DNA of 64,000 nt from Ilumatobacteraceae bacterium (GTDB lineage Bacteria; Actinomycetota; Acidimicrobiia; Acidimicrobiales; Ilumatobacteraceae): positions 310,001 through 374,000 of the forward strand of contig JAWPMO010000001.1 of the NCBI GenBank assembly GCA_033344875.1. The letters run 5' to 3'. The stretch's first letter is position 1. Each line of letters starts with the position of its first letter. Below the pieces are notes generated by a model that worked only from the letters and a program-made list of their open reading frames with translations, ran no database searches and was not told the DNA's origin. Shown piece after piece: positions 31,398-44,443 of this stretch. The translations under genes were made by a program, and so were the position numbers.

Positions 31398-31925
31398 TCA
31401 GTCCTCGATGACGTCAAGTCCCTCGGCGCGAAGTCGGGCGAGGTTGTCGAGCATGCCTTGGAGCACCTCCGGTGGGTGGGGGTCCCAGGTCTTGATCTCG
31501 GCGATCACTCGCACCGGATGCTTGGTGCGGTACGACTGGGTGACGTTGCCGGGGAACCGCTTGTTGGTGACGTTCGGGTCGTCCTCGAACGGTCCGGTGG
31601 GTTCCACCCGGTAGATGCGCTCGGTTCCACTGCCGGTCAGAGCAACGGCGAGCTCCGCGCCATAGACGGCGGGCTCCAACAGTGCGGCGAAATACACGTG
31701 ATTCGAGATCCGGCCGTCGTGGTAGTTGCTCGGGTGCCCAGCGACGATCTCGTCGCCGACGTCGAAGGTGGCCTTGGTGCCGTGGAAGAAGGGTCCGGTC
31801 ACATGGTGGCAGTGGTCGAAGGTCACCGGGACGTGCTCGACGTCCGCGGATCGGGCGATCGCGTCGGCGATCGACGTGGTGGCATCGGTCAGCTGCCCGG
31901 AGTGCAGAGGTTCTCGTCGTATCAT
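31398..31925 (-). CDS. arr: Rifamycin ADP-ribosyltransferase Arr
   Basis: 175 residues. FFHGTKATFDVGD, NHVYFAALLEPAVYGAELAV, IYRVEPTGPFEDDPN and NKRFPGNVTQSYRTKHPVRV are the hallmark segments of Arr enzymes, which transfer ADP-ribose from NAD to rifampicin. The His of FHGTK, the Tyr of VYFAAL and the Asp of EDDPN are all present. The N-terminus is about 35 residues longer than the shortest family members. A -10 box lies only ten bases before the ATG, so the message may be leaderless. Intrinsic resistance is the expected phenotype. Confidence 0.85.
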   Translation of the reverse strand: MIRREPLHSGQLTDATTSIADAIARSADVEHVPVTFDHCHHVTGPFFHGTKATFDVGDEIVAGHPSNYHDGRISNHVYFAALLEPAVYGAELAVALTGSGTERIYRVEPTGPFEDDPNVTNKRFPGNVTQSYRTKHPVRVIAEIKTWDPHPPEVLQGMLDNLARLRAEGLDVIED

Positions 31926-31935
31926 TAAGTGGAGG

Positions 31936-31941
31936 ATTATA
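31936..31941 (-). promoter_or_regulatory. -10 box of arr
   Basis: TATAAT on the minus strand, ten bases upstream of the arr start codon; GGAG and CTCC flank it as a short dyad that may be an operator for the divergent TetR protein. No convincing -35 box at 17 bp. Confidence 0.5.
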
Positions 31942-31993
31942 CTCCGTTTCGTGAACGTGGTTGGAGCGAGGCGCATCGGACCGAGGAGGACCC

Positions 31994-33213: not shown

Positions 33214-33298
33214 TGAACCGCCCTGGGTTGTGGTCTGCCCCGGGGATCGCGCGGGCGGTTGTACTTGAATCTCGGGCACTGATGATGAGGAGGTCATC

Positions 33299-33607
33299 GT
33301 GCCAAGGAAGTATCCGGCGGAGTTCCGTCGCAAGGTGTTGGATCTGATCGAGGCCGGCAAGTCGGTCGCTGAGGTCGCTGACCTGCTCGACGTGTCGGGC
33401 CAGACGATCTACAACTGGCGGAATCAGGATCAGATCGATCGCGGTCAGCGAGCCGGGGTGACGACGGCGGAGTCGGCCGAACTGGCGGCCGCCCGCAAAC
33501 GGATCCGCGACCTCGAGACCGAACTCGCCGTGACCCGGCGTGCGAACGAACTGTTGAAGGCGCAGTCGGACCCAAAAGGCGGTGGGAGGTCGTCGCACAG
33601 GTCGTGA
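33299..33607 (+). CDS. IS3-family transposase OrfA, element 1
   Basis: 102 residues. YPAEFRRKVLDLIEAGKSVA and DLLDVSGQTIYNWRNQDQ form the HTH of IS3 OrfA, followed by a leucine-zipper-like tail (AAARKRIRDLETELAVTRRA). GAGGAGG precedes the GTG. The stop overlaps the GTG start of orfB. Confidence 0.85.
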   Translation: MPRKYPAEFRRKVLDLIEAGKSVAEVADLLDVSGQTIYNWRNQDQIDRGQRAGVTTAESAELAAARKRIRDLETELAVTRRANELLKAQSDPKGGGRSSHRS

Positions 33608-34574
33608 GCGAGGGTCTCCCGGTCGAGGTGACGTGCCGGGTGGTCGGCGTGTCGGTGTCGGGGTTCTATGCGTGGCGCAACCGCAAGCCCTCAGCGAGGG
33701 CGGTCCGTCACGAGATGATCGCCGACGTCATCCGCGAAGTCCACGACGATTCGCGCCAGACCTACGGCGCTCGCCGCGTGCATGCCGAGCTCGTGCTGGG
33801 GCGCAAGATGGTCGTGGCGCGTTGCACTGTGGAGCTCGTGATGCGCCGGCTCGGGCTGGCTGGGCTACCGGGGCGGCCGAGATACCGCAGGACCCCGAAC
33901 ACACCGACTGCCGAAGATCTCGTCAACCGAGACTTCGCCCGGACCGAGCCGAACCGCCTCTGGCTGACCGACATCGAGCGCCACGAGGCGCTTCCCAACC
34001 GTGTGGTGATGAAAGGACACCACCGTGTGCTCGTCGCAGCGGGCGCACCGAAGCTGAGGGCAGCCTGATCCGGGGAACGCCGGGGAGGGTGGACAGCAGC
34101 CCTGACAACGACGGAACGGGCCAGCACTGCCAGATGGTCCGGGTCCGGCAAGCAAGACGGAAAGGCGTACGTGAGGAACCAGCGACTGAACGCTCCTCAA
34201 GAGAGCCAGCAGCTCGAACCTGGTGGATCTGGGCTGCGTAGCAACGCGCACCCGCACGATGTGCGGGGAACTCTGCGGTCGGGTGATGTCGCCGGCCGGG
34301 AGGCCACGATGAAGGCCTGCGGCGTAGTCGTGGCGATGTTGCAGGGGCATAGCTGGACGCCGACCCCGTCGAACGGTTGGAGAGTGAACGTGGGAACCAT
34401 CCCGCTGGTCCCTCCCCGCTGCCCAGCCAGGGTGGCGGGTGGGAAGGCCCGTTGCCGGTTGATGCCGGTGGGGTGGGGCGGAGGACCCGTAGTAGTCCGA
34501 GGCCGGGAAAGCCGGTCACATGGCGAAGGGGTCCAGCGTGTTCGCAGCAGACAAGCGGAGCGTGGAGGTCGCTG

Positions 34575-36023
34575 GTGAATACCGGCGCGCCGTGGCCGAG
34601 CCTCGAAGAGGCCGAGCTGCGGGTACGCGTGATGCAGACGAAGCTGCACCACTGGGCGAAGGCCGATCCTGGCCGTCGCTTCGATGACTTGTTCAACCTC
34701 GTGTATGACCCGGCGTTCCTCACCGTGGGGTGGCGTCGGGTGCGGGGCAACAAGGGCGCACGAACCGCCGGGGTCGACGGAATCGCACCGCGATCGGTCG
34801 TTCTCGGTGTCGAGGAACTGCTGACGGGCATCAGGGATGACCTGAAGGCCCGTCGGTTCGTTCCTCAACGGGTGCGGGAAAGGACGATCCCGAAGGGCAA
34901 CGGCAAGGTCCGTGCCCTGGGGATCCCGACGACCGCAGACCGGATCGTGCAGTCCTCGTTGAAGCTGGTGCTCGAACCGATCTTCGAGGCGGACTTCAAG
35001 CCCTGTTCGTATGGCTTCCGTCCGAAGCGCCGAGCTCAAGACGCGATCGCCGAGATCCACTACCTCGCGTCACCGACCCGGAACTACGGGTGGGTGTTCG
35101 AGGCGGACATCGAGGCGTGCTTCGACCAGATCGACCACGCGGCCCTCATGGACCGGGTGCGGAATCGGGTCGGGGACAAACGCGTGCTGGGGTTGGTGAA
35201 GGCGTTCCTGCGAGCCGGTGTCCTCTCCGAGGACGGCGCCTGGCGGGAGACGATCACCGGCACACCCCAAGGCGGGATCCTCTCGCCGCTGCTGGCCAAC
35301 ATCGCGTTGTCCGTGCTGGACGAGCACTTCACCCAGAAATGGGACGCGCTCGGAGGGGAATGGACGCGTGCCAAGCGCCGTCGCGCCGGGGAACCGGTCA
35401 TGAGACTCGTCCGCTACGCGGACGACTTCGTGGTCATGGTCCACGGCACCCGCGACGACGCCGAAGCACTCCGCGACGAAGTCAGCTCGGTGTTGGCCCC
35501 GATGGGCTTGCGCCTATCAGACGCCAAGACGAGGGTCTGCCACATCGACGAGGGGTTCGACTTCCTGGGATGGCGCATCCAGCGTCGCGCCTGGCGAGGC
35601 CGGACCGGCAAGACCGCTGTCTACACCTACCCGTCCAAGAAGAGCCTGCGCTCGATCATGGACAAGGTGCGACAGCTCACCCGCCGAGCGAAACATCGAA
35701 CGCTCGCAGACCTGCTGCGCCGACTGAACCCGGTGCTGCGGGGCTGGTGCAACTACTTCAGGCACGGCGTGTCATCACGCACCTTCGGCTACCTCGACCA
35801 CTTCGCCTTCTGGCGGATCGTCGGCTGGCTGAAGAAGCGACACCTCGGCTTGAACATGCACACCCTCATCCGGCGCTACGTCCCCAACTGGGAGATGCGC
35901 GCCGGCGGGATCGACATGTTCCGACCGGAAGCGGTCGCCATCGAGCGCTACCGATACCGGGGCACGAAGATCCCGACCCCATGGGACAGCGAGACCACAG
36001 GATCACCCGCACCAGCGGCATGA
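34575..36023 (+). CDS. ltrA: Group II intron reverse transcriptase/maturase, copy 1
   Basis: 482 residues. RT motifs: GVDGIAP, RALGIPTTADRIVQ, FEADIEACFDQIDH, GTPQGGILSPLLANI and the catalytic RYADDFVVM; then the maturase X domain with LLRRLNPVLRGWCNYFRHG. No HNH endonuclease domain is seen at the C-terminus, so this is an endonuclease-minus form that would use other primers for retrohoming. Start GTG at 34575 follows GGAGG with six-base spacing; the upstream part of the open frame is the intron RNA core and is not coding. Confidence 0.9.
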   Translation: MNTGAPWPSLEEAELRVRVMQTKLHHWAKADPGRRFDDLFNLVYDPAFLTVGWRRVRGNKGARTAGVDGIAPRSVVLGVEELLTGIRDDLKARRFVPQRVRERTIPKGNGKVRALGIPTTADRIVQSSLKLVLEPIFEADFKPCSYGFRPKRRAQDAIAEIHYLASPTRNYGWVFEADIEACFDQIDHAALMDRVRNRVGDKRVLGLVKAFLRAGVLSEDGAWRETITGTPQGGILSPLLANIALSVLDEHFTQKWDALGGEWTRAKRRRAGEPVMRLVRYADDFVVMVHGTRDDAEALRDEVSSVLAPMGLRLSDAKTRVCHIDEGFDFLGWRIQRRAWRGRTGKTAVYTYPSKKSLRSIMDKVRQLTRRAKHRTLADLLRRLNPVLRGWCNYFRHGVSSRTFGYLDHFAFWRIVGWLKKRHLGLNMHTLIRRYVPNWEMRAGGIDMFRPEAVAIERYRYRGTKIPTPWDSETTGSPAPAA

Positions 36024-36032
36024 ACACGTGGA

Positions 36033-36066
36033 GAGCCGGATGCAGTGGAAGCTGCACGTCCGGTTC
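36033..36066 (+). ncRNA. Group II intron domain V, copy 1
   Basis: 34 bases that fold as GAGCCGGATGCAG / GAAG-containing tip / CTGCACGTCCGGTTC, the size and shape of the catalytic domain V; the AGC triad is in GAGCCGG. Domain VI follows up to 36130. Confidence 0.8.
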
Positions 36067-36722
36067 GGAGGGCGGGCCGGAGAAACCCACCCACCGAAAG
36101 GTGGACAGGGCGCTCCGGTCCGACCCCTACACCGAACACCGCACACGCGAGGGCAAGGTCTACTGCGCCGTCGTGCTCGACGCGTTCTCGCGCCGCGTGG
36201 TCGGCTGGTCGATCGACTCATCCCAGACCGCCAACCTGGTCGTGAACGCATTGGGCATGGCGATCGAGAACCGTCAGGCCGACGGCGTCGTGATCCATAG
36301 CGACCACGGCACCCAGCCAGTACACCTCGTGGGCGTTCACCCGCCGCGCGATCGACTCCGGGCTGGTGCCCTCGATGGGTTCGATCGGGGACTGTTACGA
36401 CAACGGCCAGATGGAATCGTTCTGGGCCCGCATGCAGGTCGAGCTACTGAACCGCAAGCGCTGGAACACCCGGCTCGAGTTGGCGAACGCGATCTTCGAG
36501 TACCTTGAGATCTTCCACAACCGGCAACGACGTCACTCGTCACTCGGCATGCTCAGCCCGATCGAGTACGAGCTCCGTCACGCCGACAACCTGGCCCGCG
36601 ATCAAGCAAGCTGACCGCGCGAAACCCGGGGCACACGAGAGCCTCCATCAAAGCCAGGGCGGTTCAGCCGTCGGCCCTCAAGCGGAATATGTCGTCGACG
36701 TGGAGCCTTCCCGTCACGCTGT

Positions 36723-37604
36723 CTACGGCTCGTCGACATTGGGGATGCCGTTGAACTCCGCCTTTGTCGCGAGTCCGAGGTCGTTCGTGATCAACACCAC
36801 GACCCTGTCGGGTTGAGATGCCTGAATGGTTAGCGTCGAGGCCAGCACTCGATCGTCGGGCGTGTTCGGGTCCAGCCAGGTCGGAAGCCTGGCGAAATCT
36901 GGTTCGACCGGCTCAATCCGTGCTGTGAGGCTGCCTTCGACGGTCACGCCCGCCAAGAGGGATCCGCGGTCGCGAAGCCCCTTGATCCGCTTTGCGGCCT
37001 TGGCGGCCGCAGCGCGAACCTCCTGCGATCGGCCGCGGTCCTTCAAGTCATCGAGCTCTCGGATGACGGCCGGCACGAAGACCAACTCGACCGGAACGCG
37101 ATCGAAGGGCTTTGAGAATCGAGCGAGGTCCGGTTCGCGGAGCAGGCAGTTCGTGTCGATGATTGCGACAACGCCGCGTGTGCGGTCGGGTGCTGCTTGC
37201 TCGATGAGGTCGTCGATGGCCGCAGTGTCGCTTGTCGCCTTGTCGACCGCCTCAGCGATTGTCGTCGGGACCGACCAGTCATTGCTGTTCGATCGGTCGA
37301 GCCAGCCCCGTACAAGTTTATCGACGTCGCCGATGCGGCCATCGATCTCGGGAAGGGATGCCACGAACAGGAGTCTGAACCGCACGAGCCACCGGTCGTA
37401 GCGCACGAGCAGGTCGTGCCGGCGCTGTACAGCTGCTGGGGTGTCGTCGCTCCGGCGTCGATCTACGAACCCGATGAAGCCGACCGGCCAATCCACTCGC
37501 TCGATACTCGAGCTCTCAACCACGGCAACGAACGCCTCTCGAATCTCGTTCCACTCGGTGCTGAGCAGGTCTGCGTACGACCGCAAGTTCGAGACATCGC
37601 TCAT
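36723..37604 (-). CDS. PIN-domain protein
   Basis: 293 residues. The C-terminal half is a PIN_4-type domain: VVAIIDTNCLLREPDLARF (first Asp), VIRELDDLKDRGRS, DDRVLASTLTIQ and VVLITNDLGLATKAEF, with the expected acidic residues for Mg-dependent RNA cleavage. The N-terminal ~140 residues are helical and of unknown use. GGGAGA lies eight bases before the ATG. A small upstream gene overlaps its start, so it could be an RNase with a partner protein. Confidence 0.75.
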   Translation of the reverse strand: MSDVSNLRSYADLLSTEWNEIREAFVAVVESSSIERVDWPVGFIGFVDRRRSDDTPAAVQRRHDLLVRYDRWLVRFRLLFVASLPEIDGRIGDVDKLVRGWLDRSNSNDWSVPTTIAEAVDKATSDTAAIDDLIEQAAPDRTRGVVAIIDTNCLLREPDLARFSKPFDRVPVELVFVPAVIRELDDLKDRGRSQEVRAAAAKAAKRIKGLRDRGSLLAGVTVEGSLTARIEPVEPDFARLPTWLDPNTPDDRVLASTLTIQASQPDRVVVLITNDLGLATKAEFNGIPNVDEP

Positions 37605-37894
37605 GGATGAAGTCTCCCCCAACGGATCCCGCGAACACAGCATCGACCCGCGGGTGCCGCGAGCTGTTTGACCCGCTCTGTATTGACGGCGACCTCGCCA
37701 CCAGACGACCGCTCGCGAACGGCACTTACGAGTGTGGCGAACCGACCCATAATGGTCACGAGTTCTGACGCCACTGGCCGCCCGGTCGCAGAATCTGGAG
37801 CTGATCGTTCGCGAGCAAGGTGGCGCAGCGCGCGCTGTAACACCCTTCGTTCAGACTGTGGCGATACCTCGCGGAGTGCGGTCGATACCCTCAC
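37601..37894 (-). CDS. Small hypothetical gene coupled to the PIN-domain gene
   Basis: 97 residues from a GTG at 37894. The first 70 residues (STALREVSPQSERRVLQRAL) look like a helical protein; its TGA overlaps the ATG of the PIN gene (ATGA), which favours real translation. IS element 2 begins 12 bp upstream and may have removed its promoter. No family recognised. Confidence 0.35.
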   Translation of the reverse strand: MRVSTALREVSPQSERRVLQRALRHLARERSAPDSATGRPVASELVTIMGRFATLVSAVRERSSGGEVAVNTERVKQLAAPAGRCCVRGIRWGRLHP

Positions 37895-37975
37895 CTGCTG
37901 ACGCGCGGGTCTGCTGCATGAATCGGTGACATCTCATCTGGCTTGCTCGAGGAGCGGGCCTGGAAGGATGTTGCT

Positions 37976-38284
37976 ATGCCGAAGCCGTACCCGAAGGAGT
38001 TCCGCGACGACGTCGTGAGAGTCGCCCAGAACCGTGAGTCGGGGGTGACGCTCGAGCAGATAGCGAAGGACTTCGGGATCCACCCGATGACCCTGTCGAA
38101 CTGGCTCTCCCAGACCGCCATCGACGCCGGCACCAAACCCGGCAAGACCACCGCGGACAATGCCGAGTTGCGCGAAGCGAACAAGCGGATCCGTCTGTTG
38201 GAGCAAGAGAACGAAGTGCTGCGCCGAGCGGCTGCGTATCTGTCGCAGGCGAACCTGCCGGGAAAAGGATCTACCCGCTCGTGA
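37976..38284 (+). CDS. IS3-family transposase OrfA, element 2
   Basis: 102 residues, same length as OrfA of element 1 but a different sequence. YPKEFRDDVVRVAQNRESGV and KDFGIHPMTLSNWLSQ form the HTH; ELREANKRIRLLEQENEVLR is the coiled coil. The stop overlaps the GTG of orfB (GTGA), as in element 1. Confidence 0.85.
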   Translation: MPKPYPKEFRDDVVRVAQNRESGVTLEQIAKDFGIHPMTLSNWLSQTAIDAGTKPGKTTADNAELREANKRIRLLEQENEVLRRAAAYLSQANLPGKGSTRS

Positions 38285-41200
38285 CGGAGCTCGCTGCTGA
38301 TGGGATCCCCGTCACGGTGACGTGTCGGGTGTTGAAGCTCTGCCGCCAGGACTACTACCGATGGCTCCACGAACCCGTCACCGATGCTCTGCTCGACGAG
38401 GCGCACCTCACCAACGCGATCTTCGACGCCCACGTCGACGATCCGGAGTTCGGGTATCGGTTCCTCGCCGACGAGGTCCGCTCAGCCGGCTTTGACGCGT
38501 GCGACCGGACGGTGTGGCGGATCTGTCGAGACAACGGCTGGTGGTCGGTGTTCGGCAAGAAGAAGAGCAAAGCGGGCAAGCCGGGCACGCCGGCCCATGA
38601 CGACCTGGTGAAGCGCGACTTCACCGCAGCGGGTCCTGACGAGTTGTGGCTCACGGACATCGAGCGCCACGAGGCGCTTCCCAACCGTGTGGTGATGAAA
38701 GGACACCACCGTGTGCTCGTCGCAGCGGGCGCACCGAAGCTGAGGGCAGCCTGATCCGGGGAACGCCGGGGAGGGTGGACAGCAGCCCTGACAACGACGG
38801 AACGGGCCAGCACTGCCAGATGGTCCGGGTCCGGCAAGCAAGACGGAAAGGCGTACGTGAGGAACCAGCGACTGAACGCTCCTCAAGAGAGCCAGCAGCT
38901 CGAACCTGGTGGATCTGGGCTGCGTAGCAACGCGCACCCGCACGATGTGCGGGGAACTCTGCGGTCGGGTGATGTCGCCGGCCGGGAGGCCACGATGAAG
39001 GCCTGCGGCGTAGTCGTGGCGATGTTGCAGGGGCATAGCTGGACGCCGACCCCGTCGAACGGTTGGAGAGTGAACGTGGGAACCATCCCGCTGGTCCCTC
39101 CCCGCTGCCCAGCCAGGGTGGCGGGTGGGAAGGCCCGTTGCCGGTTGATGCCGGTGGGGTGGGGCGGAGGACCCGTAGTAGTCCGAGGCCGGGAAAGCCG
39201 GTCACATGGCGAAGGGGTCCAGCGTGTTCGCAGCAGACAAGCGGAGCGTGGAGGTCGCTGGTGAATACCGGCGCGCCGTGGCCGAGCCTCGAAGAGGCCG
39301 AGCTGCGGGTACGCGTGATGCAGACGAAGCTGCACCACTGGGCGAAGGCCGATCCTGGCCGTCGCTTCGATGACTTGTTCAACCTCGTGTATGACCCGGC
39401 GTTCCTCACCGTGGGGTGGCGTCGGGTGCGGGGCAACAAGGGCGCACGAACCGCCGGGGTCGACGGAATCGCACCGCGATCGGTCGTTCTCGGTGTCGAG
39501 GAACTGCTGACGGGCATCAGGGATGACCTGAAGGCCCGTCGGTTCGTTCCTCAACGGGTGCGGGAAAGGACGATCCCGAAGGGCAACGGCAAGGTCCGTG
39601 CCCTGGGGATCCCGACGACCGCAGACCGGATCGTGCAGTCCTCGTTGAAGCTGGTGCTCGAACCGATCTTCGAGGCGGACTTCAAGCCCTGTTCGTATGG
39701 CTTCCGTCCGAAGCGCCGAGCTCAAGACGCGATCGCCGAGATCCACTACCTCGCGTCACCGACCCGGAACTACGGGTGGGTGTTCGAGGCGGACATCGAG
39801 GCGTGCTTCGACCAGATCGACCACGCGGCCCTCATGGACCGGGTGCGGAATCGGGTCGGGGACAAACGCGTGCTGGGGTTGGTGAAGGCGTTCCTGCGAG
39901 CCGGTGTCCTCTCCGAGGACGGCGCCTGGCGGGAGACGATCACCGGCACACCCCAAGGCGGGATCCTCTCGCCGCTGCTGGCCAACATCGCGTTGTCCGT
40001 GCTGGACGAGCACTTCACCCAGAAATGGGACGCGCTCGGAGGGGAATGGACGCGTGCCAAGCGCCGTCGCGCCGGGGAACCGGTCATGAGACTCGTCCGC
40101 TACGCGGACGACTTCGTGGTCATGGTCCACGGCACCCGCGACGACGCCGAAGCACTCCGCGACGAAGTCAGCTCGGTGTTGGCCCCGATGGGCTTGCGCC
40201 TATCAGACGCCAAGACGAGGGTCTGCCACATCGACGAGGGGTTCGACTTCCTGGGATGGCGCATCCAGCGTCGCGCCTGGCGAGGCCGGACCGGCAAGAC
40301 CGCTGTCTACACCTACCCGTCCAAGAAGAGCCTGCGCTCGATCATGGACAAGGTGCGACAGCTCACCCGCCGAGCGAAACATCGAACGCTCGCAGACCTG
40401 CTGCGCCGACTGAACCCGGTGCTGCGGGGCTGGTGCAACTACTTCAGGCACGGCGTGTCATCACGCACCTTCGGCTACCTCGACCACTTCGCCTTCTGGC
40501 GGATCGTCGGCTGGCTGAAGAAGCGACACCTCGGCTTGAACATGCACACCCTCATCCGGCGCTACGTCCCCAACTGGGAGATGCGCGCCGGCGGGATCGA
40601 CATGTTCCGACCGGAAGCGGTCGCCATCGAGCGCTACCGATACCGGGGCACGAAGATCCCGACCCCATGGGACAGCGAGACCACAGGATCACCCGCACCA
40701 GCGGCATGAACACGTGGAGAGCCGGATGCAGTGGAAGCTGCACGTCCGGTTCGGAGGGCGGGCCGGAGAAACCCACCCACCGAAAGGTGGACAGGGCGCT
40801 CCGGTCCGACCCCTACACCGAGCACTGGACGCGGGAGGGCAAGCTCTACATGTGTGCGATCAAAGACGTCTGGTCGAACCGGATTGTTGGCTACTCGATC
40901 GACAGCCGCATGAAGGCCCGACTCGCCGTCCAGGCGATCGACAACGCCGCTGCTCGACGCGGCGGTGACGTTGCAGGGTGCATTCTGCATTCGGATCGCG
41001 GGTCGCAATTTCGTTCACGAAAGGCGCAGCGAGCGCTGGTCCGCCACGGCATGGTCGGCTCGATGGGCCAGGTCGGCTCCGCAGGCGACAACGCCGCGAT
41101 GGAATCGTTCTTCTCACTCCTGCAGAAGAACGTCCTCAACCGGCGCGCATGGGCGACTCGTGACGAGCTGCGCATCGAGATCGTCACCTGGATCGAACGC

Positions 41201-41293
41201 ACCTACCACCGCCGGCGACGCCAGCCCCGCCTCGGCCGATTGACCCCGATCGAATACGAGACCATCATGACCCCGACCACCAAAGCCGCCTAA
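38281..41293 (+). CDS. IS3-family transposase OrfB, element 2, split by group II intron
   Basis: Exon 1 (38281-38661) ends LWLTDI; exon 2 (40817-41293) begins TEHWTREGKLYMCAIKDVW. The spliced protein would have 285 residues with all DDE residues: Asp in TDI, Asp in LHSDRGSQF, Glu in AAMESFFSLL. The intron sits between codons, so accurate splicing would restore an active enzyme. An upstream frame through the intron joins exon 2 by chance. Confidence 0.85.
39261..40709 (+). CDS. ltrA: Group II intron reverse transcriptase/maturase, copy 2
   Basis: 482 residues, the same sequence as copy 1 (GTPQGGILSPLLANI, RYADDFVVM, maturase LRGWCNYFRHG). No C-terminal HNH domain. Start GTG after GGAGG. This copy could act on both introns in trans. 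Confidence 0.9.
   Translation: MNTGAPWPSLEEAELRVRVMQTKLHHWAKADPGRRFDDLFNLVYDPAFLTVGWRRVRGNKGARTAGVDGIAPRSVVLGVEELLTGIRDDLKARRFVPQRVRERTIPKGNGKVRALGIPTTADRIVQSSLKLVLEPIFEADFKPCSYGFRPKRRAQDAIAEIHYLASPTRNYGWVFEADIEACFDQIDHAALMDRVRNRVGDKRVLGLVKAFLRAGVLSEDGAWRETITGTPQGGILSPLLANIALSVLDEHFTQKWDALGGEWTRAKRRRAGEPVMRLVRYADDFVVMVHGTRDDAEALRDEVSSVLAPMGLRLSDAKTRVCHIDEGFDFLGWRIQRRAWRGRTGKTAVYTYPSKKSLRSIMDKVRQLTRRAKHRTLADLLRRLNPVLRGWCNYFRHGVSSRTFGYLDHFAFWRIVGWLKKRHLGLNMHTLIRRYVPNWEMRAGGIDMFRPEAVAIERYRYRGTKIPTPWDSETTGSPAPAA
40719..40752 (+). ncRNA. Group II intron domain V, copy 2
   Basis: Same 34-base domain V as copy 1, at the same distance from the intron end. Confidence 0.8.
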
Positions 41294-41330
41294 CAAACCC
41301 CATCTGTCACCGAAACGTGCAGCAGACCCC

Positions 41331-42569: not shown

Positions 42570-42643
42570 TGTCACGGACTACTACCCGAGTTCACTACCC
42601 GACCTGGTCGGGTAGTGAACCGTGAGGCGGTCGGGTGGTGAAC
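42570..42643 (+). promoter_or_regulatory. Cluster of TCGGGTAGT sites before the coupling-protein gene
   Basis: TGTCACGGACTACTACCCGA (42570-42589), then a perfect palindrome with arms GTTCACTACCCGA and TCGGGTAGTGAAC around CCTGG (42590-42620), then TCGGGTGGTGAAC (42631-42643), which covers the GTG start. Four copies of one half-site, two in each direction. The first 20 bases recur inverted at 44514-44533. Confidence 0.7.
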
Positions 42644-44443
42644 GAGCGCCCGTCATCGATGTCCGCACCCGAGACATTGCTCCTGGTAGCGGCATGTGCG
42701 GTCGTCGCTTTGGGCGTGGTGGCGTGGAGCGGAGCCGCCCTCGCGGCGATGTTGAACGGCGAGCGCCTCGACGGTGGTTTGGCCGCCGCGATGCGGGCGC
42801 TCACCCGGCTGCCCGATCATCTCGGTGACCCGCGGATGGCGTGGCGAGCGCCCGAGGACCGCGCCGCGCTTCCCGGACCGACGTTGTATTGGGCGGCGAC
42901 AAGCTGCGTGCTGCTGGCGGTGCTCGGTGTCGTGTGGCTCGGGCTCTGGGTGTGGCGTCGCAGCCTGGATCGGGGGCGGGTTCGCCTCGGAGTCGAGACG
43001 CGCGCCCGGTTCGCGACGACCCGGGACTTGGCTCCGTTGGTCGTCGAGCGACCGGTGCCGACCGGCCGGTTCGTACTCGGTCGAGTGCACGGCCGGTTCG
43101 TCGCGACCGAGGACCGGCACGCGGCGGCGCCGATGCGATCGCGGCGGGTGCGGGTCCGCCAGGGTGACCGTGGTTCAGTCGCAGTGATCGGCCCGTCACG
43201 GTCGGGCAAGACCGCCAACGTGATCGCTGGGCTGCTCGACTGGGACGGTCCGGCCGTGGTGGTGAGCATCAAGCGTGACCTGATCGACGCCACCCGCGAA
43301 GCCCGCCAAACGAAGGGGGCCACCAAGGTGTTCGACCCGTCTGGAGTATCCGGGCTGCCGCCTCTCGAGTTGGGACGCTGGACACCGCTGCGGGCGGCGC
43401 GCAGCCCGCGCGGTGCGCAGAAGGCAGCGTCCGCGCTGGCGGCGTCGATCCCGCGGTCGGGTGTCGACGGGGGAGCGGACTACTGGGTGAAGCAGGCCGA
43501 GATCCTCCTGACCGGCCTGCTCGGCGCCGCCGCACTCGCCGACGACCGCACGATGCTGGATGTCGCCCAGTGGGTGTTCACGAAGTCAATCCCGGTCAAG
43601 AAGCGGCCCAACGAGATCATCGACATCTTGCGTCGAGCCAAGCAGCGCGGCACGGCCGCCGAGCGGGAGGCGGCGGGCGCGGCGATGCTGCAACTCGACG
43701 CGGTGTGGAACCTCGACGAGCGGGTCCGGTCGTCGGTGTACGCCACCGTGCAGACCGTCGTCCAGGCGTGGCTCGACCCCGCCGTGGATCTTTCGTCCAC
43801 TCTCGACCGGTCCGGGCAGCGGTTCGTCGATCTCGACTGGCTCACGGATCCCGGGCGGGCCAACACGCTCTACCTGGTCGCGCCGCTCGACGACCAGGAT
43901 CGCCTCGCGCCGGTCCTCGGCGGGCTACTCGGTGACCTCAAGGACCAGGCATATCAGCGCGACGTCGCCGGTGTGGGGCTCGAGCGGCCGCTGCTGATGG
44001 TGATCGACGAGGCCGGCAACATGCCACTGGCCTGGTTGCCCGAGGTCGCCGCGACCTGTGCTGGGATCGGGATCCTGCTGGTGACGATCTGGCAGTCGAA
44101 GGCGCAGCTCGACGCCGCCTACGGCCGGCTGTCCGACAGTGTGCTGACCAACCATCTCACCAAGGTCGTGTTCTCTGGTTGCTCCGACCCGGCAACGCTC
44201 GACTACGTCAGCCGCCTGCTCGGTGACGAGGAGGTGCAGCACCGGTCATTGTCGTACGACCTCGGCGGAGGGTCACGACGCAGCGTCTCCGAGTCGAGCC
44301 ACCGCGAGGCTCTCACTCCGTTCCACCTGCTGCGCCAGGTCCGCCCCGGCGAGGCGGTCCTGATCCACGGCACCCTGCCGCCGGCCCATTTGATCGCCCG
44401 CCGCTGGTGGGAAGAACGCCCGGCCGGCCAGAAGGCAGCCTGA
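42635..44443 (+). CDS. VirD4/TraG-type T4SS coupling protein
   Basis: 602 residues. Two membrane helices at the N-terminus (about 12-36 and 84-108), then AVIGPSRSGKTANVIAGLL (Walker A), VSIKRDLIDATREAR, DYWVKQAEILLTGLL and LLMVIDEAGNMPLAWLPEV (Walker B), all signs of VirD4/TraG coupling proteins that bring DNA to the T4SS channel. The GTG at 42635 has GAGG seven bases upstream. The start lies inside a TCGGGTGGT site, so binding there would block translation start as well as transcription. Confidence 0.85.
   Translation: MVNERPSSMSAPETLLLVAACAVVALGVVAWSGAALAAMLNGERLDGGLAAAMRALTRLPDHLGDPRMAWRAPEDRAALPGPTLYWAATSCVLLAVLGVVWLGLWVWRRSLDRGRVRLGVETRARFATTRDLAPLVVERPVPTGRFVLGRVHGRFVATEDRHAAAPMRSRRVRVRQGDRGSVAVIGPSRSGKTANVIAGLLDWDGPAVVVSIKRDLIDATREARQTKGATKVFDPSGVSGLPPLELGRWTPLRAARSPRGAQKAASALAASIPRSGVDGGADYWVKQAEILLTGLLGAAALADDRTMLDVAQWVFTKSIPVKKRPNEIIDILRRAKQRGTAAEREAAGAAMLQLDAVWNLDERVRSSVYATVQTVVQAWLDPAVDLSSTLDRSGQRFVDLDWLTDPGRANTLYLVAPLDDQDRLAPVLGGLLGDLKDQAYQRDVAGVGLERPLLMVIDEAGNMPLAWLPEVAATCAGIGILLVTIWQSKAQLDAAYGRLSDSVLTNHLTKVVFSGCSDPATLDYVSRLLGDEEVQHRSLSYDLGGGSRRSVSESSHREALTPFHLLRQVRPGEAVLIHGTLPPAHLIARRWWEERPAGQKAA

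Follow-up and report, generated by a model that had tools for sequence, protein, structure and literature searches.

Group II introns generally choose their targets through pairing between exon-binding sites (EBS) of the intron and intron-binding sites (IBS) of the exons, and their bacterial copies lie mostly among other mobile DNA (PMC4424553, in the portion available). The available portion of PMC3522654 describes E.c.I4/IntA, a mobile group II intron of Escherichia and Shigella found at specific transposase positions of the insertion sequences (IS) IS629, IS911, ISEc16, and ISEc31; copies in one strain are nearly identical, and the sites are sometimes saturated. Here, we analyzed a 64,000-nt stretch of DNA from an Ilumatobacteraceae bacterium (assembly GCA_033344875.1, contig JAWPMO010000001.1, positions 310,001–374,000 of the forward strand; hereafter the window), in which two copies of one group II intron interrupt the transposase frame orfB of two different IS3-family elements, IS-A and IS-B (Table 1). 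The best explanation, to which we assign a probability of about 0.9, is that a mobile intron with RNA guides homes to the first-Asp motif of IS3 transposases, by what appears to be retrohoming. The intron would have moved recently from one of IS-A and IS-B to the other, and the IS-B copy would then have been duplicated.

Pairwise comparison of the two introns in the window gave 0 mismatches over 2,155 bp, as the initial annotation had stated. A search of the genome found a third identical intron at C1:286871-289025 (C1 being the contig of the window), inside a second copy of IS-B. Beyond the intron ends, identity continues for just 6 bp on the 5′ side (GACATC) and 5 bp on the 3′ side (ACCGA). 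The hosts themselves do differ outside the intron, as had been claimed: the flanking DNA is 62.2% identical on the 5′ side and 65.9% on the 3′ side (200 nt each), the orfB proteins are 31% identical in the 5′ exon and 48% over 64 aligned residues of the 3′ exon, and the orfA proteins are 42% identical. In both elements, the 5′ exon of orfB stops at residue 223 of the NCBIfam model NF033516 (IS3 transposase) and the 3′ exon starts at residue 224, so that no residue is lost or gained and the insertion falls exactly between codons, at the predicted boundary between TDI and TEH. In IS3 transposases, the Asp of TDI is established to be the first of the three catalytic DDE residues, and the insertion point in both elements lies one codon past it.

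The abrupt change in identity at the junctions also bears on how the two IS came to share an intron. Had both inherited it vertically from one intron-bearing ancestor, the shared codon would be explained, and IS-B has indeed been duplicated along with its intron. However, an intron that is 100% identical over 2,155 bp adjoins exons of 62–66% DNA identity and proteins of 31–48% identity. This step refutes vertical inheritance for IS-A versus IS-B and leaves it to account for the two IS-B copies alone, and we give it practically no credence. Recent homogenization of old, related introns by gene conversion is improbable as well: the introns are long enough for recombination, and conversion of ~700 bp of an intron has been reported in another family (PMC3522654, available portion), yet here the identity spans the entire intron, halts at the junctions, and extends to three copies. 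Gene conversion would moreover need a pair of old insertions at one and the same base and would thus already assume homing to that codon. We consider it still less probable, and very unlikely, that the intron was placed in the other IS by DNA-level recombination or an assembly error. Such long repeats are able to mislead assemblers, but the genome is a single contig (99.65% complete), both elements have junctions that are exact to the base and keep the frame, and the same pattern recurs across many unrelated assemblies.

The initial annotation had proposed matching the EBS of the intron to GACATC/ACCGA. We compared each intron hexamer with each exon hexamer offset (7,920 combinations) across 40 introns with no prior guess. 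These were drawn from 48 introns, three being too short to align and five (L001, L015, L041, L065, and L148) being dropped as duplicates or for lack of a usable domain I downstream. The top two independent maxima of the scan are EBS2, with 4.15 of 6 pairs to its own exon versus 2.44 to the exons of others (z 9.1), and EBS1, with 4.58 versus 3.04 (z 8.3). Permuting exons among introns abolishes the pairing, also inside the group of introns that start with GAGCG, where the observed level was reached in 2 of 5,000 permutations for EBS2 and 6 of 5,000 for EBS1 (n = 18). In the window, EBS1 (GATGTC) pairs 6/6 with GACATC of both IS-A and IS-B, and EBS2 has a 6/6 match to IS-B against 5/6 for IS-A, a hint, no more, that IS-B is the older home. 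EBS3 was located at intron nt 375. On a first pass, 19 of 22 introns show pairing between this nucleotide and the opening base of the 3′ exon, and 20 of 22 do so after the boundary of L052 was corrected by hand from the reading frame; 0 of 2,000 permutations did as well. The +1 bases were assigned manually, using the alignment, the AY end, and the reading frame. The features of group IIB-type targeting are thus all present, namely an EBS1–IBS1 pairing of ~6 bp, EBS2–IBS2, and EBS3–IBS3.

The sequence TGGCTSNNNGACATC has nine exact matches in the genome, and the full target, TGGCTSNNNGACATC followed by A, occurs three times, each time occupied by the intron. The six sites without an intron carry G, G, G, C, T, and C at +1. 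Another transposase of related type reads TGGCAAACCGACATG^ACC (a caret marks the insertion point here and below), deviating in IBS2 and in the last base of IBS1. An uninterrupted relative of IS-B on a Nocardioides plasmid (76% identical) reads GACATC^ACCGAACAC, with nothing missing.

To see where relatives insert, we gathered them without using exon sequence, by intron DNA similarity in 396 genomes of the phylum and in plasmids, and by a pattern scan of genome contigs. The pattern covered the first 26 intron positions and allowed any second base but T, so GAGCG loci were found partly by a pattern that bars T at position 2. At least 120 stretches matched; among the 120 listed, 23 have homology to domain I of the window intron, and the others are mostly chance matches, except L074, whose contig begins at the intron and has no exon, and L089, which lies at the same site as L018 and was removed as its duplicate. 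The genomes, the plasmids, and the matches listed by the scan together gave 48 distinct copies whose 5′ flank could be read, to which all counts of relatives below refer, and 25 of these, including the two in the window, start with GAG. The 23 GAG loci outside the window comprise 19 at the IS3 codon, two at the equivalent codon of IS30, one in IS1634, and one elsewhere in IS3 orfB. Other copies are hence not at random sites, and the proposal that a conserved DDE motif serves as the homing site gains support from both these 19 of 23 loci and the guide pairing.

In all 19, the 5′ exon ends in W-x-x-D followed by I, V, L, T, or C. The IS3 model is matched by 16, of which 13 end at residue 223 and three at residue 222 plus one unaligned residue. 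L096 and L099 have no family match and were placed by motif, and L103, whose 5′ exon is too short for a model search, by motif together with an IS3 3′ exon starting at 224. In L070, the 5′ exon scores about equally as IS481 and IS3, and the 3′ exon scores best as IS3. Ten 3′ exons were tested: six begin at residue 224 from their first residue, and four align from residue 7–11 onward. As for the remaining loci, L114 lies in IS30 and shares its model residue, 140, with L046; L065 was assigned by motif, its IS30-like frame being broken; L150 follows LLFDT of an IS1634 transposase on a contig with just 70 nt of the intron; and L119 lies at residue 351 of IS3 orfB. The Thermoleophilia pair L086/L098 does not count as a second, independent instance of what the window shows, since its hosts are 88% identical to each other. 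In virus contigs, the protein scan found no relative, a GTGCG pattern had 0 matches, and a GVGCG pattern matched seven stretches, none homologous to the intron protein or domain I. A search of E. coli genomes with the window intron gave a 52-bp match alone, in 56 of 5,426 genomes.

The anatomy of the intron is that of a group II intron. The Rfam RF00029 match (domains V–VI) ends exactly at 36130 and 40816 (57.5 bits, E 1.2e-08 each), the domain V–VI fold is much better than that of shuffles (z −5.8), and the predicted fold of domain VI has one unpaired (bulged) A eight nt from the intron 3′ end, which reads ...CCCCTAC and fits the AY rule. Domain I was folded as a single strand. The intron protein, which apparently starts at a GTG after GGAGG, gives Pfam matches to RVT_1 and GIIM and none to HNH, in agreement with its annotation as lacking an HNH domain. 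The solved structures that it matches best are 6me0, LtrA (5g2x), and IIC enzymes, in that order.

The 5′ end is less usual. GUGYG is a strong, not absolute, consensus of group II introns, and all three copies start with GAGCG instead; a GCGCG start is found in three relatives (L068, L123, and L133). The vast majority of group II introns are given a GUGYG 5′ end in the available portion of PMC4424553. One candidate explanation, that an internal GTGTG is the true start after a 25-nt 5′ extension, was ruled out, since EBS1 covaries with the six bases just before GAGCG and relatives carry GTGCG where the window intron has GAGCG. Intron nt 2 also covaries with nt 557 (A–T in 18 of 18, T–G in 18 of 20, and C–G in 3 of 3), and a compensatory pairing was considered. 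It was rejected because nt 557 belongs to a stem immediately 5′ of the reading frame, where it varies with its own stem partner, so that the link to nt 2 reflects ancestry.

A protein tree was built from 35 of the 40 rows with a match, leaving aside the duplicate L001 and rows of <240 residues. Apart from L114, all 14 GAG rows cluster together (98/94), and this cluster joins the IS30 pair of L046 (GTG) and L114 (GAG) (98/92), and the GAG state requires 2 changes versus 11.5 in shuffles. This grouping indicates that use of the IS3 codon has persisted through much divergence; L119 represents a single move within IS3, and there is a link to IS30. The IS30 motif W-E-G-D-L has the same spacing as that of IS3, and the W-x-x-D-hydrophobic motif shared by the two explains how introns jump between IS families.

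Introns starting with GTG or GCG make up the other 23 copies and are mostly in other mobile-element genes. Fourteen have such hosts: one each in IS30, ISL3, IS66, IS701, IS1634, and IS1380, three in IS110 (L047 and L050 by Pfam, the second copy of L044 by motif), two in IS3 orfA, two in group II reverse transcriptases at YADD, and one in a tyrosine recombinase at HDMR. Two are in cellular genes, a BCCT transporter (L014) and a GH19 chitinase (L133), where the insertion is at conserved-looking motifs too, and seven are without host assignment (L015, L017, L019, L025, L048, L053, and L123). The reverse transcriptase cases (L068 rc 3419 and L196 1166) are introns within introns, directly after YADD, and their YADD-F^ and YADD-L^ junctions have the same geometry as the IS3 site. 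On the Rhodococcus plasmid pNit (L044), two introns of this family lie 2.5 kb apart, one occupying the IS3 codon and the other inserted at GIDWAE in an IS110-like gene. We tentatively consider, at somewhat less than even odds, that this actinobacterial lineage hunts catalytic-motif codons of mobile-element enzymes in general. The order of catalytic Asp, next codon, and cut would be kept in IS3, in IS30, and at the YADD sites of relatives; the same idea would cover the GIDWAE motif of IS110 and, in the tyrosine recombinase, the HDxR box, with EBS1–3 re-tuned at each jump. The motifs concerned are taken to hold catalytic residues. If true, the essential residues of the prey would serve as an address that it is unable to mutate away.

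Returning to IS3, homing could proceed as follows. The RNA guides of this group IIB-like, presumably mobile intron match the DNA of the first-Asp motif (W-x-x-D-I^T): EBS2 is complementary to the Trp codon and the codon after it, EBS1 to the Asp and Ile codons, and EBS3 to the opening base of the Thr codon. Once spliced out, the intron RNA would, together with its reverse transcriptase/maturase, reverse-splice into empty copies of the site and be copied into DNA. Because these codons encode a catalytic residue and its neighbors, very different IS3 elements keep nearly the same target, so that one intron may invade several. Priming is probably from replication forks, as in RmInt1, given a protein without an endonuclease domain. 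After invasion, the intron would ride along on IS transposition. The earlier claim that it travels with IS elements is supported by the duplicated unit of IS-B plus intron, although separate homing into two IS-B copies would look alike.

Several points weigh against retrohoming to the IS3 motif. Splicing, retrohoming, the priming mode, and the ride on IS are steps that we infer from sequence. With a GAGCG start in place of GUGYG, efficient splicing cannot be assumed, and splicing cannot yield a working transposase from IS-A, as its orfB is frameshifted at ~36315: homology exits the frame after residue 62, and NF033516 residues 285–369 are found in another frame (C1:346315-346572). Some sites match their own guides poorly (e.g. 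L105, GACTGC), and four of the 23 outside GAGCG loci (L065, L114, L119, and L150) are off the IS3 codon. L044, the closest outside relative, is without an IS3-like 3′ exon (7-aa frame). The 5′ and 3′ exons of L165 resemble different IS3 subgroups, possibly a mosaic from recombination between intron copies; the L165 intron measures 4,344 nt, with an insert in the protein gene. Finally, the probability that all six unoccupied sites in the genome lack A at +1 by chance is ~0.18, so that this point is weak alone.

The state of the hosts leaves room for a reading in which the intron mainly silences its IS, with little exon ligation, and thus does not ride on active elements. We regard this as possible, though the less likely case. 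RmInt1 yields <1% correctly spliced exons in vivo and has been proposed to limit its IS (PMC4238363, available portion), the broken orfB of IS-A points the same way, and the GAGCG end may weaken splicing. Conversely, the orfB exons of IS-B are intact through the end of the IS3 model, and there are two identical intron-bearing copies of IS-B. Silencing in any case touches the consequence of homing, not homing itself.

Both hosts have the orfA/orfB layout, the IS3-type DDE transposase, and the terminal inverted repeats of the IS3 family. The second copy of IS-B, at C1:286115-289539, is identical over 3,425 bp, intron included, and no target-site duplication was recognized by eye at either copy. 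Searching the genome with the 5′ part of each IS found no further copies of IS-A or IS-B, with or without the intron. A conjugative coupling protein (T4SS-DNA_transf, TraG-D_C) is encoded at 42635-44443 of the window, so that the IS elements adjoin conjugation genes, and a rifampin ADP-ribosyltransferase-like gene (Arr-ms) lies at 31398-31976 on the − strand, ~1.3 kb upstream of IS-A.

Table 1. Window positions of the intron copies, their guide and target sites, and the host elements
Feature	IS-A (copy 1)	IS-B (copy 2)	Strand	Basis or remark
Group II intron in orfB	33976..36130	38662..40816	+	Copies identical to each other
IBS2	33961..33966 (TGGCTG)	38647-38652 (TGGCTC)	+	Trp codon and next; covariation scan
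IBS1, GACATC	33970..33975	38656-38661	+	Asp and Ile codons; identity and covariation scan
EBS2, GAGCCA, intron nt 228-233	34203..34208	38889-38894	+	Covariation scan
EBS1, GATGTC, intron nt 310-315	34285..34290	38971-38976	+	Covariation scan
EBS3, T, intron nt 375	34350	39036	+	Partner is A at +1 in each 3′ exon
Reverse transcriptase/maturase	34575..36023	39261-40709	+	RVT_1, GIIM; TIGR04416, 373 bits, above cut-off
Domain V hairpin	36033..36066	40719-40752	+	RF00029, fold
Domain VI	36067..36130	40753-40816	+	Predicted fold
IS-A, IS3 family	33226..36643		+	Ends approximate, from 29-nt imperfect inverted repeat (79%); IS3 model
IS-A orfA	33299..33607		+	HTH_Tnp_1
IS-A orfB 5′ exon, ends ...LWLTDI	33604..33975		+	NF033516 100-223
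IS-A orfB 3′ exon, opens TEHRTREG	36131..36505		+	NF033516 224-286 in frame
IS-B, IS3 family, 3,425 bp with intron		37906..41330	+	Ends begin CGGGTCTGCTGCA, mirroring each other
IS-B orfA		37979..38284	+	HTH_Tnp_1
IS-B orfB 5′ exon, ends ...LWLTDI		38281..38661	+	NF033516 99-223
IS-B orfB 3′ exon, opens TEHWTREG		40817..41293	+	NF033516 224-369, open to model end

An intron in an IS3-type element of E. coli (L216, with an ALIL pseudoknot) allows a direct comparison. It has a canonical GTGTG start, its protein is 35% identical to that of the window intron, and its junction, after W-V-A-D-F-T-Y plus one base, is 7 nt downstream of the site used here. We infer that L216 is E.c.I4; PMC3522654 cites a 2004 study by Han. 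Unlike L216, the clade of the window intron inserts directly after the codon following Asp, reaches IS30, and starts with GAGCG. Like E.c.I4/IntA as described in the available portion of its report, the window intron occupies one fixed position in more than one kind of IS3 element, so that homing of an intron into conserved IS3 regions is a behavior already known. RmInt1 of Sinorhizobium meliloti resembles it in being group IIB-like, in lacking an endonuclease domain, and in living in the transposase gene of an IS (ISRm2011-2, IS630 family) with which it spreads; unlike the window clade, RmInt1 targets one IS type and its close relatives, at a site defined by the IBS sequence and in another host family (PMC4238363 and PMC5894124, available portions). 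Fidelity to a catalytic codon across transposase families is not among the general group II intron behaviors described in the available portion of PMC4424553. A search of openly licensed papers found, in the text available, no description of the GAGCG clade or of a catalytic-codon homing rule, which is weak evidence of novelty. New in the present case are the insertion site at a catalytic codon, the GAGCG start, the reach into IS30, and the guide covariation that was traced. Three independently covarying guide elements show how a retroelement stays on target in hosts that share little beyond the active site, they form a natural series of re-tuned guides of use for group II intron gene targeting, and intron–IS exchange becomes testable inside one genome. 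The main gain lies in having gone from two copies to a whole clade whose guides covary.

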